From: Parvularculaceae bacterium
Lineage (GTDB): Bacteria > Pseudomonadota > Alphaproteobacteria > Caulobacterales > Parvularculaceae
Direction of reading: 5' to 3'
Length of the DNA: 64,000 bases
Assembly: GCA_021776435.1 (NCBI GenBank)
Contig: JAJFFW010000082.1
Span: 1-64,000, forward strand
Under the pieces are notes generated by a model. It had not been told where the DNA came from, did not search any database, and worked only from the letters and a program-made list of their open reading frames with translations. Every line of letters starts with the position of its first letter. The first letter of the stretch is position 1. Below, in pieces: positions 2,195 through 58,332 of the stretch. Both the position numbers and the translations under genes were made by a program.

Positions 2195-3607
2195 TTATTT
2201 TTCGGCGTCCCCTTTGAGGTTAAAAAGGCTTCGTTTCGGCGCCGTTTTTCCGACATCACTTTTGACCGGCGGATCCATCCGCCAAGCCTTCGGGGCTGCT
2301 TGAAACCCCGGATCGATAAAATGCGCTGTGGTGTCACGGTGTCGCCAGTCAGGGTTGGCGACATCTTGCGCCTCCGTTTCGATAGCGTATCGATTCGCAT
2401 CACGGCCATCTGTTGAGAGCCGCCCAACCCGAGCACGAAAGACCTCAAGCGCATCCTCGATCCTTCTAATGACATCGACAGGCCGCGGGGCTTCACGCGC
2501 CGTAAACGCGGACCTCAGCGATTCGAGGGCTTCATCAATGCCCCGGTCATTCGCAACACTGGAAAAAGAGCGTGAAATGGCGTTCAAAATTAGACCTGAA
2601 ACCGCATACAGCACACCGCCCCCCAACAGCGCCACAACCGCCCAAGGATATTTGGCAATGGCGAGCGGAACGGCCGTTGCCTCGGGTGGTGGAGCGTATT
2701 GCAGGTAAATAAGCGCGGCGCCAGCAAGAAAGCCAAAAATGAAGACAAGAGCGCCCGGCGGCGGCGGCGGGATCGTAATCAATGCATAGGATCGCAAAAA
2801 GCCCCTAAACTTCAGGGCGGCCTCTCCATGTTCGGTTTCCGTGAGAAAGCCAAGTTCGCGGAAAAATGCCTGTGCTTCTAATGCGGTTAAATGAGCGCTC
2901 GAAAGATCGATCACTGCATCTGCCGGGTTCCTTCGTTCATCCATGTTGTGACGAAGAATATCGAGCGCATCGTCGAATTCCTTTGATTCGTTAGCTATTG
3001 TGACACCTAACTCCTCACCGCAAGCTCGCAGATTTGCGTTATCCGCACCCCCCATATAAGCAACCAGAGCCGCCGTCAGTATGGCCGCCCCGACACCGAA
3101 TGATCCGACAATGATAAACGTCTGCATAAGAACGGTGGCGTCTGAAATTTGAATACCGAAAGCGAGCGCGTCTTGTGTTGAGCGTGCATGAGAAACTTCA
3201 AAAAATAACCACCCCGCTATCGCAAGCCAACCAAGACCAATCACGAAGCGAAAGAACTGGGTCGCGAATGAGACTCCGCCTTCGTTACGGTCAGATACAG
3301 CCGCACTTACACAGAGTGCGCCGGTGCGAAGCCCCTCCCGCCGCTCGACGATGGCGCGGGCGCTGGATTCAAGGCGGGCCGCGAGCGCGTCGCCGTTACC
3401 ATCATTATGATGACAGTTTTCAATTGCAGAACTGGAACTTTCCAGAGAGTCGGCTGGCCCCAAACCAAACCCGTTACGAGCGGTTTCATGGGTAGCGGGC
3501 CACAATAGCTGACGCAGAGTTCTAAATAGGTTTGAGGGCGTTCCCTCGCGCTGTCGAACACGCAAACGACCGGATTCGTCCGGGAATTTGTCCGCTTTGG
3601 AACCCAT
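2195..3607 (-). CDS. Hypothetical membrane protein with four predicted TM segments (470 aa)
   Basis: I do not recognise this protein. An ATG exists at 3658, but the ATG at 3607 follows a perfect GGAGG with good spacing, so I use 3607 (MGSKADKFPDESGR). After a charged N-terminal region of about 110 residues come two hydrophobic segments (FVIGLGWLAIAGWLFF and TFIIVGSFGVGAAILTAALV), a hydrophilic domain of about 100 residues, two more hydrophobic segments around PPPPPGALVFIFGFLAGAAL and the YPWAVVALLGGGVLYAV stretch, then a polar C-terminal tail. The layout suggests an inner-membrane protein with cytoplasmic domains. It precedes nrdA on the same strand across a 232-base gap containing the NrdR-like boxes, so co-transcription is not implied. 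Confidence 0.75.
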   Translation of the reverse strand: MGSKADKFPDESGRLRVRQREGTPSNLFRTLRQLLWPATHETARNGFGLGPADSLESSSSAIENCHHNDGNGDALAARLESSARAIVERREGLRTGALCVSAAVSDRNEGGVSFATQFFRFVIGLGWLAIAGWLFFEVSHARSTQDALAFGIQISDATVLMQTFIIVGSFGVGAAILTAALVAYMGGADNANLRACGEELGVTIANESKEFDDALDILRHNMDERRNPADAVIDLSSAHLTALEAQAFFRELGFLTETEHGEAALKFRGFLRSYALITIPPPPPGALVFIFGFLAGAALIYLQYAPPPEATAVPLAIAKYPWAVVALLGGGVLYAVSGLILNAISRSFSSVANDRGIDEALESLRSAFTAREAPRPVDVIRRIEDALEVFRARVGRLSTDGRDANRYAIETEAQDVANPDWRHRDTTAHFIDPGFQAAPKAWRMDPPVKSDVGKTAPKRSLFNLKGDAEK

Positions 3608-6425: not shown

Positions 6426-8234
6426 CTACCTGCCTTCCAGAGATTCGCGTTTAACTTCCAAAACCAACCACTCTTCTTCCGCCGCACAAAGACTATTCTG
6501 TGCAATATCAAGTGTTTTCACAGCTTTCTCAAATGCGTGTCTATCTCGTTCATAAAGATTTTGATCATCGAGCTTTAATTTCAATTCCGCGATTATTTCT
6601 TCTAGACCCGCAATGCGATCAGGTAATCTTTCAAGGGCATATTGCTCCTTATAACTGAGCTTTGCCGTCGTGGGCTTCAAAACCACGGGGGTCTTCTTGT
6701 GCAAGCTTGCGCCAGCTTTCCAGGGCGGCAAACTGCTTTCGGGTTTGACGAAGGAGAGCATATCAGAATATCCGCCGACATATTCACACCAACGCCCTTC
6801 GGGGCTACGAGTATCCGGCGCGACAACAGAGGTGACAGTACGATCAAGAAAACTTCTGTCATGACTAACTAGAAGCAACGTGCCCGAATACCCTGCAAGC
6901 AGTTCCTCAAGAAGGTCGAGTGTTTCCAGATCGAGATCATTGGTTGGTTCATCAAGGATCAGCAAGTTCGATGGTTTTGCAAGCGCCGCCGCCAGCGCCA
7001 ATCGCCCGCGCTCTCCTCCCGAAAGCGAACGAACGGGCGCCCGCCACTGTTCAGGCGCAAACAGAAAATCCTTTAGATAAGTCGCTGCATGGCGTTTTTC
7101 GCCAGCAATCGTCACCCAATCGCCACGCCCATCCGTTATCGCATCCGCAACCCGCATGTCAGGCTCGAGACTGGCGCGACGTTGGTCTAAAGACACGGTT
7201 TCCAAATGGGTCCCCAGACGAACAATGCCCTTATCAGGCGTTAATGCGCCGCTCAGCAGATTAATGAGCGTTGTCTTGCCAGCGCCATTTGGCCCCACAA
7301 ATCCAACTCGATCACCACGTGAAATCTCAATCGAAAAGTCCTGCACCACCGCACGACCATCAAATTCTTTTGACAGATTTTCTGCAACAATTACCCGTTT
7401 TCCGGATCCTTTCCCTTCATTCAGTGAAAACTTCACTTTCCCCGTCGCAAGGTGCGCCTCACGACGCTCTGTACGCATTGTATCAAGCTCACGCATACGC
7501 CGCACATTACGGCGCCGCCGAGCAGTAACGCCATACCGAACCCAATGCTCCTCAGAAACGATTTTCCGATCTAGCTTATGGCGAGCAATCTCTTCTTCCT
7601 CCAACACTTTGTCGCGCCAGGATTCGAAGCGGGAAAAACCCACACCAGTCGTTCGCGTCTCACCTCTATCAATCCATACCGTCTTTGTAGAGAGTCTTTC
7701 AAGAAATTTCCGATCATGACTAATTAGCACCAACGCGGCACGCGTTGTGGCAAGTCGATCTTCAAGTTTGGCAATCGCCGGTAGATCGAGATGGTTGGTG
7801 GGCTCATCCAATAAAAGAATATCCGGCGCCCCCGCTAAAGCGCGCGCTATGGCGGCGCGGCGCGCCTCACCACCGGAAAGTGTTTCACATATTAAGTCTG
7901 GCGACAGACCGAGTTCGTTGAGCTCTCGTACGATTTCATGCTGGTCCAAACCGAGCGGCAAATCAGTCAAAACGTAATCACCAACAGTCTTGAAACCAGA
8001 AAGATCTGGCTCCTGCGGCAGGTAGCTCACCCGCGTTCCGGGACTTACAAACCGGTCGCCTGTGTCAGCTTCAACGGACCCTGCCGCAATTCTTAACAAA
8101 GTGGATTTTCCCGACCCGTTGCGCCCCACGAGCGCTATTCGGTCACGAGGGTCAATTGTCAGCGAGGCGCCTTTGAACAGCGGTGCGCCTCCAAAGGTAA
8201 GCCGTATATCGGCGAGGTAAAGAAGTGGCGGCAT
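6426..8234 (-). CDS. uup: ABC-F family ATPase Uup (602 aa)
   Basis: Soluble tandem ATPase of the ABC-F group, acting on ribosomes or nucleic acid rather than in transport. Two nucleotide-binding domains are complete: Walker A GRNGSGKST near residue 37 with LSGGE and LLLDEPTNHLDL, and a second Walker A GPNGAGKT with LSGGERGRLALA and LILDEPTNDLDL. The last 70 residues (YKEQYALERLPDRIAGLE onward) form a C-terminal coiled coil, the feature that separates Uup from EttA. No transmembrane domain is present. It runs divergently from the regulator gene starting at 8409; the intergenic region carries a repeated operator-like motif. Confidence 0.93.
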   Translation of the reverse strand: MPPLLYLADIRLTFGGAPLFKGASLTIDPRDRIALVGRNGSGKSTLLRIAAGSVEADTGDRFVSPGTRVSYLPQEPDLSGFKTVGDYVLTDLPLGLDQHEIVRELNELGLSPDLICETLSGGEARRAAIARALAGAPDILLLDEPTNHLDLPAIAKLEDRLATTRAALVLISHDRKFLERLSTKTVWIDRGETRTTGVGFSRFESWRDKVLEEEEIARHKLDRKIVSEEHWVRYGVTARRRRNVRRMRELDTMRTERREAHLATGKVKFSLNEGKGSGKRVIVAENLSKEFDGRAVVQDFSIEISRGDRVGFVGPNGAGKTTLINLLSGALTPDKGIVRLGTHLETVSLDQRRASLEPDMRVADAITDGRGDWVTIAGEKRHAATYLKDFLFAPEQWRAPVRSLSGGERGRLALAAALAKPSNLLILDEPTNDLDLETLDLLEELLAGYSGTLLLVSHDRSFLDRTVTSVVAPDTRSPEGRWCEYVGGYSDMLSFVKPESSLPPWKAGASLHKKTPVVLKPTTAKLSYKEQYALERLPDRIAGLEEIIAELKLKLDDQNLYERDRHAFEKAVKTLDIAQNSLCAAEEEWLVLEVKRESLEGR

Positions 8235-9949: not shown

Positions 9950-11002
9950 TTACGCGAACAGCTTTGCCCATTCACGGCGTTTACGACGATTCCAGGCGCC
10001 ACGGTGATAGGCATCGGAAACGATGAGCGGAACGACCGAAGACGCCTCCGCGAACACCATCTGCTCGAGGGCCACATCAACCTTACCCCATGAACACGCC
10101 TCTTTTAGTGTTGATGAGGAACACGCACCGTCGCGCACGTCAGCAATCGAGACCTGAATCGCGTATTTGTGCATCTCGACATTTTCGTGCCCAAGAATCT
10201 CAGCACAAACGACCGTGTCTTGAACGAAATTCTTTGGCACACCACCGCCGATCATGAAAAGGCCGGATGTCCCTCCGTTTATCTTGATATCGGTCAGTTC
10301 ACGAAAATCTGCGACTGAGTCGATAGACACATACGGCTGCCCCGCTTTAATGCGCTCCACTTGGTGCTTGACGAGCCCGAAACCGGCCGAAGAATCCGAG
10401 AAAGCCGGACAAAATATCGGGACCCCGGACTTATGCGCCTCTTCAATGAGAGACCCTTCCTTGCGGGCATTGCCAGCGGCAAGCCACTCACCCATTGCGT
10501 GGATAAACCTTCGCGAAGACATGGGCCCCGGCGGCAAGGCGTCCGCAATCTCCTTGATAGTCGCATCGCAGGCCTGGAGGTCTTCCTCATCGATATAGGT
10601 GTCATAGATACGATCAATATAGAGATCTCTCAAAACCCGATCGTCGGGGATCTCTTTTGCTTGATAGTGTCTAAATCCCAGGGCTTCAAAAAAATCCATA
10701 TCGACGATGGAGGCACCCGTCGCAACGACAGCATCCACCATGTTGTAGCGCACCATGTCGCGCCATACATGCATGCAGCCGCCAGCTGATGTTGAGCCTG
10801 CGAGCGAAAGGAATAACGAACAGTCTTGATCTTCCAACGCCGTGTTGAAAATACGCGCCGCACGCGCCGCATCGCGAGACGTGAAAGACATCTTCTCCCA
10901 GGCATCGATCACGGGCCGAGCGTCAAATGACGCAATGTCTATGTGCTCGACGGGCGCGCTGAGAAGTTCAGCTTTGCGGTTATCGGCGGGAGATCCGGCC
11001 AT
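9950..11002 (-). CDS. Deoxyhypusine-synthase-like protein (350 aa)
   Basis: Member of the deoxyhypusine synthase (DHS) fold family, NAD-dependent enzymes that transfer an aminobutyl group from spermidine or putrescine. The catalytic-lysine region of DHS is visible as KEACSWGKVD near the C-terminus, with the conserved VPLIVSDAYHRG following and GSTSAGG, ATGASIVDMD and IGGGVPKNF earlier. The ATG at 11002 follows AAAGGA. Bacteria lack eIF5A, the DHS substrate, so the real reaction is probably polyamine synthesis such as homospermidine formation. The next gene upstream on the same strand is an ornithine/lysine decarboxylase, which supports that inference. A palindromic repeat lies between them. 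Confidence 0.85.
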   Translation of the reverse strand: MAGSPADNRKAELLSAPVEHIDIASFDARPVIDAWEKMSFTSRDAARAARIFNTALEDQDCSLFLSLAGSTSAGGCMHVWRDMVRYNMVDAVVATGASIVDMDFFEALGFRHYQAKEIPDDRVLRDLYIDRIYDTYIDEEDLQACDATIKEIADALPPGPMSSRRFIHAMGEWLAAGNARKEGSLIEEAHKSGVPIFCPAFSDSSAGFGLVKHQVERIKAGQPYVSIDSVADFRELTDIKINGGTSGLFMIGGGVPKNFVQDTVVCAEILGHENVEMHKYAIQVSIADVRDGACSSSTLKEACSWGKVDVALEQMVFAEASSVVPLIVSDAYHRGAWNRRKRREWAKLFA

Positions 11003-11256: not shown

Positions 11257-12459
11257 CTACTCCCCTTGCGTCAGCGCGACGACGTTTTCATTGGCGGCTT
11301 CGTCGCCCACTGATCCATACATCGAAAGCATCGGCAGATCGTCAACAATGACTTCGAGATATTCACCAAAACCATTAAATTTTCCAGCCAGTGCTGCGCC
11401 ATAGGCGCCAGTCAGACCAAATTCGATATAATCGCCCTCACTGACATCATCAGACAGGAAGAATGGGCCAGGCATCGCGTCGATGGAGTCACAGGTCGGG
11501 CCGAACAACCGATAGGGTGTTAAGGACCGACGCAATTGCCGTTCCGGTCTCAACAATTGACTTGGGAACACAAGGCCATCATGAGCCGCATCGAACAGGG
11601 CGCCATAAGCGCCATCATTCAAATAAAGCGCGTCGCCTTTGCGCAGTTCCACTCGGGTGATGTGGCTTCCCGCTTCTGCGCATAATGCACGCCCCGGCTC
11701 GCACCATAAATCTGCATTTTCAAGTACCGGCATCTCTTCAAACGCCGCCTTGATCTCGTCCACATAATTTTCGAGTGGCGGCGGCACAAGTCCCGGATAA
11801 ATCGCTGGAAAACCACCGCCAATATCGACAATGTCAACAGTTACAGACGCCTGGCGTATCAATTCACTCACCGGCCCAATGGCCAATCGATACGCTTCAG
11901 GGCGCATGCATTGCGACCCGACATGGAAACTCACGCCCAGCCTTTCAGAGCATGACCGCGCTTCACGCAACAACATCACGGCCTCCGCGCCGGAAGCGCC
12001 AAATTTCCCGCTCAGCTTGTGCGCCGCATAATCGGATGGCGCCGCCAGCCTGATGATCAGCTGCAAATTTTTCGCGCCATTCGTTTCAGTGACAATCTTG
12101 TTTAGCTCGTCCAGCGTATCGAGTGCGAAGGTCCGTACACCAAATTCTTGATAAGCTCGACGGATCGTCGTGCGCGATTTCACTGGGTGCATGAGAGCGA
12201 TGCGTGCATCCGGGTAACGCGAAGCAACAAGTTCAATTTCAGGCAGTGACGCGACATCAAACCCCCTGACGCCCGCCCTATGGACAGCATCGAGGATGAT
12301 CGGATTCGGATTGGCTTTAACGGCATAGAGAACCTCGCCCGGAAAATGATCGACGAACCATTCAGCAGCGCGATGCGCCGCATGCGGCCGAAGACAATGG
12401 ACCGGAAGATCAGGCCGGGTCGCTAGAACCAGCGCAAGCGCAGAGTTGTACCTATCCAT
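11257..12459 (-). CDS. Ornithine/lysine decarboxylase, fold III PLP enzyme (400 aa)
   Basis: Pyridoxal-phosphate decarboxylase of the alanine-racemase-fold group (eukaryotic ODC type), producing putrescine or cadaverine. LYAVKANPNP near residue 48 carries the PLP lysine; HVGSQ, DIGGGFPAIYPG and the WCEPGRALCAEAG phosphate-binding segment follow; GPTCDSIDAM supplies the catalytic cysteine and substrate-binding aspartate contributed across the dimer. Length and motif order match ODC rather than diaminopimelate decarboxylase. The ATG at 12459 follows GAGGT. A stable hairpin and a small overlapping reading frame occupy the leader, where the speF RNA motif occurs in relatives. It stands upstream of the DHS-like gene on the same strand. 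Confidence 0.93.
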   Translation of the reverse strand: MDRYNSALALVLATRPDLPVHCLRPHAAHRAAEWFVDHFPGEVLYAVKANPNPIILDAVHRAGVRGFDVASLPEIELVASRYPDARIALMHPVKSRTTIRRAYQEFGVRTFALDTLDELNKIVTETNGAKNLQLIIRLAAPSDYAAHKLSGKFGASGAEAVMLLREARSCSERLGVSFHVGSQCMRPEAYRLAIGPVSELIRQASVTVDIVDIGGGFPAIYPGLVPPPLENYVDEIKAAFEEMPVLENADLWCEPGRALCAEAGSHITRVELRKGDALYLNDGAYGALFDAAHDGLVFPSQLLRPERQLRRSLTPYRLFGPTCDSIDAMPGPFFLSDDVSEGDYIEFGLTGAYGAALAGKFNGFGEYLEVIVDDLPMLSMYGSVGDEAANENVVALTQGE

Positions 12460-13597: not shown

Positions 13598-13803
13598 CCT
13601 CCCTTGCAAAGGGAGGTAATCGCATATGGCGCGGGAGGGATTCCTCCCCCGTTTACGGGGGAGGTGTCGAGCCCGGCGTTAAGCCGGGCGAGACGGAGGG
13701 GGTAGACTCATCCATTTGTATTGAGCGTAGAAACTCTCGTCGCCTAAACCCCCTTCGACCCACGCCTTGCGGCGCGGGCCACTTCCCCCGCAAGCGGGGG
13801 AAG
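13598..13803. repeat. Cluster of GC-rich palindromes filling the gap between acnA and the 13056 gene
   Basis: The 353-base gap 13506-13858 has no gene. It carries several perfect hairpins: CCTCCC-GGGAGG at 13598-13616, the 22-mer with arms CCTCCCCCGT/ACGGGGGAGG at 13643-13664, GCCCGGC-GCCGGGC near 13670-13688, and arms CTTCCCCCGC/GCGGGGGAAG at 13782-13803. The second and last modules recur almost exactly at 42608-42629 and 42657-42678, so this is a dispersed REP-type element. It may also end acnA transcription. No coding potential is seen. Confidence 0.8.
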
Positions 13804-13858
13804 AATAGAGCCATATGCGATTGCCCTGGCTCCGCGGGGGAGAAAGGCCTTCGGCAGC

Positions 13859-42541: not shown

Positions 42542-42582
42542 GACGATCAGCGGGCAGGTTGACGCCGCACCCCCTCCGTCTC

Positions 42583-42678
42583 GCCCGGATCAAGTCCGGG
42601 CTCAACACCTCCCCCGTAAACGGGGGAGGAATAGGCTGTGCTTGCGGCTGGGTGTTCTTCCCCCGCTTGCGGGGGAAG
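42583..42678. repeat. Second copy of the palindromic repeat seen near 13.6 kb
   Basis: Arms GCCCGGA/TCCGGGC at 42583-42601, CCTCCCCCGT/ACGGGGGAGG at 42608-42629 and CTTCCCCCGC/GCGGGGGAAG at 42657-42678 repeat the modules at 13643-13664 and 13782-13803 in the same order. It fills the 181-base gap between the convergent VOC gene and aspS. Confidence 0.8.
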
Positions 42679-42722
42679 TGCCGACACCGGATTTATTCCG
42701 GGGGAGGCGATGGGGGCGCCCC

Positions 42723-56986: not shown

Positions 56987-57646
56987 ATGGCGAAAACCAA
57001 GGTCGGCGTTCTTATCTCCGGACGGGGAACCAATCTACAGTCGCTCATTGCCGCTACTGCCGCGCCGGATTACCCGGTTGAAATTGCACTCGTCATTTCC
57101 AATCGCCCTAGGGCTTCCGGCCTTAAGTACGCGGAGATGGCCGCAATCAAGCACACCGTCATTGATCATAACGCTTTTCCGGACCGGGAAAGTTTCGAAA
57201 CCGCGATCAACGCCTTACTGCGCGAAGCAAAAGTAGATTATGTCTGCCTTGCAGGGTTCATGCGCATACTGACCGACAGGTTTGTCGGGAACTGGCGCGG
57301 TCGTCTATTGAATATTCACCCATCCCTTCTGCCGTCATTCAAAGGCCTGAATGTGCACGAGCGGATGATTGACGCGGGCGTGAAAATCGCCGGCTGCACG
57401 GTTCATTTCGTTAGTACAGAAATGGATGCAGGCGCCATCATTGGTCAGGCCGCCATAAAAGTCTTGCCCAATGACAACGCTAAAAGCCTTGCTGCACGCA
57501 TTCTTAAAATTGAGCACAGGCTGTACCCAACCTGCCTTCAGGCTGTCGTAGAAGGGTCGGCCCGTCTTTCTGGCGGTGTCGTCAAATTTGACGCCCCCAT
57601 AAAAGCGGGCCACGCCCTTCTAAATCCGACGACTAGCGGTGCTTGA
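56987..57646 (+). CDS. purN: Phosphoribosylglycinamide formyltransferase (219 aa)
   Basis: GAR transformylase using 10-formyltetrahydrofolate. VGVLISGRGTNLQSLIAA binds the phosphoribosyl group; the catalytic trio is in LLNIHPSLLPSFKGLNVHER (asparagine, histidine) and TEMDAGAIIGQAAIKV (aspartate), with AGFMRILTDRFV between. The ATG at 56987 follows GGAGG and lies 2 bases after purM. The last 14 bases overlap the end of the convergent hsp20 pseudogene. Confidence 0.97.
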   Translation: MAKTKVGVLISGRGTNLQSLIAATAAPDYPVEIALVISNRPRASGLKYAEMAAIKHTVIDHNAFPDRESFETAINALLREAKVDYVCLAGFMRILTDRFVGNWRGRLLNIHPSLLPSFKGLNVHERMIDAGVKIAGCTVHFVSTEMDAGAIIGQAAIKVLPNDNAKSLAARILKIEHRLYPTCLQAVVEGSARLSGGVVKFDAPIKAGHALLNPTTSGA

Positions 57647-57858
57647 TGGCGATCTTTTTCGGTTCTGATATGGCTTCCTTCGGCTTGGGTAAGGTCAGCT
57701 TCAAAAGGCCATTTTTCAATACTGCGTCAACCACATCCGGATCGACGTCAAACGGAAGCGGAATTGAACGCGCAAAGGAACCATAAGACCGTTCCTTCAT
57801 GTAATAGCCATCAGTATCTTTTTCTTCGCTTTCTGATCGCTTTTCACCACGGATCGTC

Positions 57859-57905
57859 CAGTCGTATCGCTCGAAAACGCTGCGGCGCCTAACGCCGACG
57901 GCAGG
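57859..57905 (-). repeat. 47-bp direct repeat, inserted copy inside hsp20
   Basis: Identical over 47 bases to 58003-58049; the copies start 144 bases apart. It encodes LPSALGAAAFSSDTT a second time. Because 47 is not a multiple of three it throws the hsp20 frame after the insertion. Confidence 0.92.
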
Positions 57906-58002
57906 TTGTCCACGATTTGAACGTCGATATCGTCCTCGGCGACACCAGGCAGCTCTGCTTCCACCTCAATCGTGTCGTTGGTTTCGCGCACATTGATGCG
58001 TG

Positions 58003-58049
58003 CAGTCGTATCGCTCGAAAACGCTGCGGCGCCTAACGCCGACGGCAGG
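58003..58049 (-). repeat. 47-bp direct repeat, original copy inside hsp20
   Basis: This copy lies in the expected place, encoding LPSALGAAAFSSDTT between the N-terminal arm and the alpha-crystallin domain, with family-like sequence on both sides. It is therefore the likely template of the copy at 57859-57905. Confidence 0.92.
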
Positions 58050-58332
58050 CCGAAACCCGCAAAAGCGTCATCGAACAATCTGTTCATTTCATGTTGGAGT
58101 CGAAAGAAGGAATCACCGGAATTCCGTTCAACTGGCTCAGTCACATGACGGTTTCGATGAAACGGCATCAAAGATTGGAACATTTCTACCTCCATTATGA
58201 TTGATTACGGGGGGGGGCTGGTGGACCGGAATACTCCTGACCAGCGAGCTCTCCCAGTCACACCACTCACAACAGATTAGAGATAGGCGCGCGCTCCCAA
58301 CTTTCAATGATCGAAATCAAAACCGCTTCACG

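Follow-up and report, generated by a model that had tools for sequence, protein, structure and literature searches.

A short copy of its own coding sequence probably broke an hsp20 gene in a Parvularculaceae bacterium

The window (that is, the whole 64 kb stretch of DNA analysed, from the draft genome of an uncultured Parvularculaceae bacterium) contains an hsp20 gene whose reading frame is broken next to an exact repeat of part of the gene itself. Does this repeat mark a reversible switch, an error of assembly, or the scar of a single event? A reading made from the sequence alone, without database searches, proposed that the gene is disrupted by a recent duplicate of its own coding sequence and that recombination between the copies might restore it. 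The disruption by a self-copy holds, its recency is plausible, and the restoration does not hold; the feature is real but ordinary, most likely a pseudogene that arose when a short piece of the gene was copied into it.

The repeat and the broken gene

Direct comparison confirms that 57859-57905 and 58003-58049 are exactly identical (47/47 bp), on the same strand and with starts 144 bp apart; when one mismatch is allowed, the repeat grows to 57855-57905 and 57999-58049 (50 of 51 bp identical). The window has no other direct exact repeat that reaches 20 bp, and the number of exact 47-mer pairs within 500 bp expected by chance in a 3 Mb genome is ~1e-19, so chance cannot explain the pair. No further copies of the 47-mer were found in the 2.96 Mb draft genome, allowing up to 3 mismatches on two overlapping halves. 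The 47-mer includes a small hairpin, and its folding is no better than that of shuffled sequences (z of -0.5 and -0.8). Elsewhere in the window, 13640-13805 and 42569-42680 form a pair of inverted repeat elements ~29 kb apart, with the short palindromes CCCCCGTTTACGGGGG and CCCCCGCAAGCGGGGG. The parts of the broken gene are as follows.

57797..58195, minus strand: 132-codon ORF of the disrupted hsp20 from the ORF list; native N-terminal part, 14-15 duplicated residues, out-of-frame residues and a premature stop
58181..58195, minus strand: alternative starts, ATG at 58195-58193 or the likelier ATG at 58183-58181 (MFQSL..., preceded by GGAGGT)
58003..58049, minus strand: the repeat's native (source) copy; it codes for part of ...FGLPSALGAAAFSSDTT..., lies in its normal position ahead of the alpha-crystallin domain and aligns to relatives with no insert
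57906..58002, minus strand: native spacer of 97 bp that separates the copies and codes for the alpha-crystallin domain's first half (ARINVRETNDTIEVEAELPGVAEDDIDVQIVDN)
57859..57905, minus strand: new (inserted) copy between the DN and TIRGEKR codons, with ~6 bp replaced and the frame shifted, from alignment to relatives and exact identity
57633..57860, minus strand: detached 3' part, WTIRGEKR...KIAIKHR followed by a stop, open in another frame, PF00011

The detached tail matches PF00011 in a Pfam search at 58 bits (gathering cut-off 20.8; E=1.1e-15; profile positions 34-102, and 33-102 in the genome-wide search), which supports the assignment to hsp20. The 132-aa ORF has no Pfam match at E<=1e-3; its residues 8-97 match NCBIfam Hsp18_Clos weakly (E=6.9e-7), and the 5' part of the gene is 44-56% identical to the N-terminal part of the Hsp20 proteins of Parvularculaceae relatives. 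Together, the two fragments make up one member of the PF00011 Hsp20/alpha-crystallin family like those of the relatives; compared with intact members, however, the window gene is frameshifted in mid-domain, no single reading frame contains the whole domain, and the truncated ORF lacks the C-terminal half. The start at 58183-58181 agrees with those of the relatives (MF) and gives an ORF of 128 rather than 132 codons. The tail is still stop-free over its 75 codons, and its first in-frame ATG yields merely a 55-aa fragment.

A run of nine G residues (58209-58217), one of the two longest G/C runs in the 714 kb sampled, lies immediately upstream of the hsp20 start and may act as a leader prone to slippage or be a weak spot for sequencing. 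An Rfam search of the locus found neither a thermometer nor any other RNA (both hits were to eukaryotic families and far under their gathering scores), and neither a sigma-70 promoter-like nor a terminator-like site was found there. Synteny with purN was not seen at the hsp20 loci of the relatives.

Which copy is new, and how it may have arisen

The nearest relatives, which place the genome in the Parvularculaceae, are Parvularculaceae bacterium, Parvularcula sp. and Marinicaulis flavus; no same-genus genome was among those returned by the search. In the relatives, the stretch that precedes the alpha-crystallin domain is about as long as the 58003-58049 region of the window, which marks this copy as native. 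At the target site, most relatives read DN-[I/L/V]-[L/I]-T-[I/L/V]-RGEKR or similar, with no insert; thus the 57859-57905 copy is the new one. The flanks of the target are kept in the window (GAC AAC on one side, ACG ATC CGT on the other), and between them 47 nt stand where the relatives have 6 nt, that is, a net gain of ~41 nt that shifts the frame. Relative to the start, the tail is in frame 2, and 47 leaves a remainder of 2 on division by 3; taking away 47 bp therefore puts the tail back in frame, as had been claimed from the sequence alone. The related claims that the restored join would be about two residues short and that a few target bases were replaced agree with the alignment, in which the relatives carry DN-x-[L/I]-T at this point and ~6 bp are replaced.

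The junction comparison relies on relatives that are only ~50-56% identical in protein, from which the ancestral 6 bp are inferred. An ancestral CTG CTG (Leu-Leu) would have provided CCTGC common to source and target at the left junction; the Leu-Leu at the target site of Marinicaulis is encoded by CTC CTC. At the right junction the microhomology may have been CTG/ACG; if the ancestor had CTG ACG, this junction needs one extra G or the replacement of part of a codon.

We consider it probable that a templated insertion inactivated hsp20, leaving a recent pseudogene in a genome that retains an IbpA-like Hsp20. The insert duplicates exactly (47/47 bp) a stretch that lies 144 bp away. While the DNA was being replicated or a break repaired, synthesis that had reached the DN/LT join would have jumped ~144 bp to coding sequence farther upstream in the gene, copied ~42-47 nt in the orientation of the source, and returned near its point of departure, with ~6 bp replaced and a net change of ~+41 bp; the resulting frameshift would deprive the alpha-crystallin domain of its second half and so create the pseudogene. 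An exact copy in the same orientation from 144 bp away, with a small replacement, can be accounted for by a double template switch, by slippage, or by break repair with a templated insert; for the chemistry, we infer template switching. No Ku gene was found in the genome, which makes classical bacterial end joining (NHEJ) an unlikely route.

In Escherichia coli, template switching produces short insertions of nearby sequence, complexity and junctions with microhomology (PMC3161906). The template-switch (MMBIR-type) events of the E. coli Lac system (PMC3161906) resemble the hsp20 event in that nearby sequence appears at a novel junction and in that a few bp of possible microhomology, without extensive homology, are enough; however, those events are amplifications and rearrangements on the kilobase scale, whereas in hsp20 47 bp would have been copied from 144 bp away within one gene, by a mechanism deduced from a single allele. 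The delins made by polymerase theta in animals are also similar: in them, too, a little target sequence gives way to an exact copy of the DNA beside it (PMC5068794). Most polymerase theta inserts are <25 bp and are primed <=10 bp from the break (PMC5068794); the enzyme is eukaryotic, and the likeness to hsp20 is limited to the scar. We found little literature on short, non-tandem partial gene duplications in bacteria.

The insertion is likely recent, although its age is not sharply bounded. The perfect identity from which a recent event had been proposed is a weak bound, as 0 differences in 47 sites limit the divergence of the copies to ~6% (95%; our own arithmetic); the proposal is plausible, and the 75-codon tail is likewise still free of stops.

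Artefact, switch, mobile element or recoding

The second copy could be absent from the cell, having been introduced by a mis-join in the assembly graph, by local assembly or by a chimeric molecule: the genome is a draft in 142 contigs, two short contigs read as all N (possibly masked stretches), and the nine-G tract lies just upstream of the gene. However, contigs share exactly 141 bp at their ends (138 ends were examined, with nine overlaps and two shared termini). MEGAHIT or metaSPAdes leave contig-end overlaps of maxK (PMC10914622), and 141 stands in the MEGAHIT k-list quoted in the same paper; the overlaps thus point to de Bruijn assembly with a final k of 141. The 47-bp repeat is far shorter than this k and lies in the interior of a 122-kb contig, so its structure should be supported by reads; in addition, the two new junctions share merely ~5 bp with their native context, so the graph needs reads that contain them, and low-level chimeras are normally removed. 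The literature yielded little on mis-assembly of metagenome-assembled genomes resembling a 47-bp self-copy. On balance, we regard an artefact as unlikely. A phase-variation switch, in which recombination between the copies would toggle hsp20 on and off, has in its favor that identical direct repeats of 47 bp are able to recombine; however, loop-out removes one copy together with the 97-bp native spacer, that is, 144 bp, a multiple of 3, so the tail stays in the wrong frame, coding sequence that the protein needs is lost, and the computed product has 84 residues. The genome contains no extra copy of the repeat, and the gene contains no long inverted arrangement. The repeat is thus a scar that does not act as a switch by simple recombination, and the reversibility suggested by the sequence-only reading is highly improbable; for an exact reversion, either template switching, itself rare, would have to happen again or the gene would have to be repaired from an intact allele of another cell.

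A small mobile or palindromic element that inserts into coding sequence, in the manner of the Rickettsia palindromic elements, would also place a short piece inside an ORF of an alphaproteobacterium, and the hairpin in the 47-mer might be read in this way. Yet the only two copies in 2.96 Mb are both in hsp20 rather than dispersed, one of them is ordinary native coding sequence at its usual position, folding does not exceed that of shuffles, and the insertion breaks the frame; we give this explanation hardly any weight. Programmed frameshifting or other recoding that rescues the gene, to give an Hsp20 with an inserted loop, could use the G AAA AAG run after the junction, where a -1 shift enters the frame of the tail. 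However, the residues between the junction and the run would still replace TIRGEKRSESE, a domain strand that is well conserved in the relatives, and the run belongs to the ordinary gene; recoding is therefore scarcely credible. hsp20 is most likely a recent, ordinary and non-switchable pseudogene.

Consequences for the gene and its genome

From the sequence, the truncated gene is predicted to have lost its chaperone function. A genome-wide search with PF00011 identified the broken hsp20 and one full-length Hsp20, on contig C140, that is IbpA-like according to NCBIfam, yet below the curated cut-off of that model. Among 36 relatives, 34 have one to four Hsp20 genes each; the other two, with none, are draft genomes that are <90% complete. 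None of the Hsp20 genes found in these relatives is split, and the domain is covered in one frame every time. The type of Hsp20 to which the broken gene belongs is apparently missing from many relatives, so its loss is tolerable in principle.

We also scanned ~1.29 Mb of the bacterium's own genome for local direct duplications (>=30 bp, >=88% identity, within 2 kb), in which, besides hsp20, the ends of several genes are duplicated as partial copies 0.5-1.5 kb from the original.

L050:11404-11600 and 12210-12406: duplicate of the 3' end of rho, 197 bp
L066:9285-9357 and 10765-10837: duplicate of the 3' end of a serA-like gene, 73 bp
L170:644-827 and 1126-1309: duplicate of the 5' end of a serine dehydratase gene, 184 bp
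L157:7291-7504 and 7904-8117: duplicate in a short-chain dehydrogenase-like gene, 214 bp
L172:2505-2554 and 3394-3443: duplicate of the 3' part of an acyl-CoA dehydrogenase-like gene, 50 bp
L176:869-920 and 2383-2434: duplicate at an LMW phosphatase gene, 52 bp

In some cases the copies enclose coding sequence, namely for a DUF891/HTH toxin-antitoxin-like pair, for a nucleotidyltransferase-HEPN protein, or for a protein that has weak SLOG-type matches. The same scan of three relatives gave 0 in 400 kb (G016), 0 in 400 kb (G029) and 3 in 389 kb (G001); sampling was uneven, some matches in the own genome are paralogues (L071, L136), and two stretches were left out, a repeat-protein one in G001 and a repeat-rich one in the own genome. 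These counts suggest that short local duplications of gene ends are numerous in this genome and rarer in the three sampled relatives. That the lineage has an unusually active process of short local duplication, which sometimes encloses a small defence or toxin-antitoxin gene and of which the hsp20 break would be a cargo-free product, we consider doubtful. Repeats of other kinds are also present: an imperfect 46-bp repeat (87%) that includes the start of mnmG (L050:6422-6467 and 6529-6574, 107 bp apart), a dense cluster of ~2.5 kb with complex direct repeats of up to 107 bp and TGTCATTCCGGGGCG...CCCGGAATGACAA units (L068:12579-15120), and a tandem repeat of ~2.3 copies of a 111-bp unit (L059:10632-10893).

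For the gene itself the break matters little: it is one loss-of-function allele, and the draft genome keeps another Hsp20. The locus offers a clean example, in one allele, of a short templated insertion from the same strand, in a genome where no Ku was detected. An exact direct repeat within a gene, as this case shows, need not be a switch.
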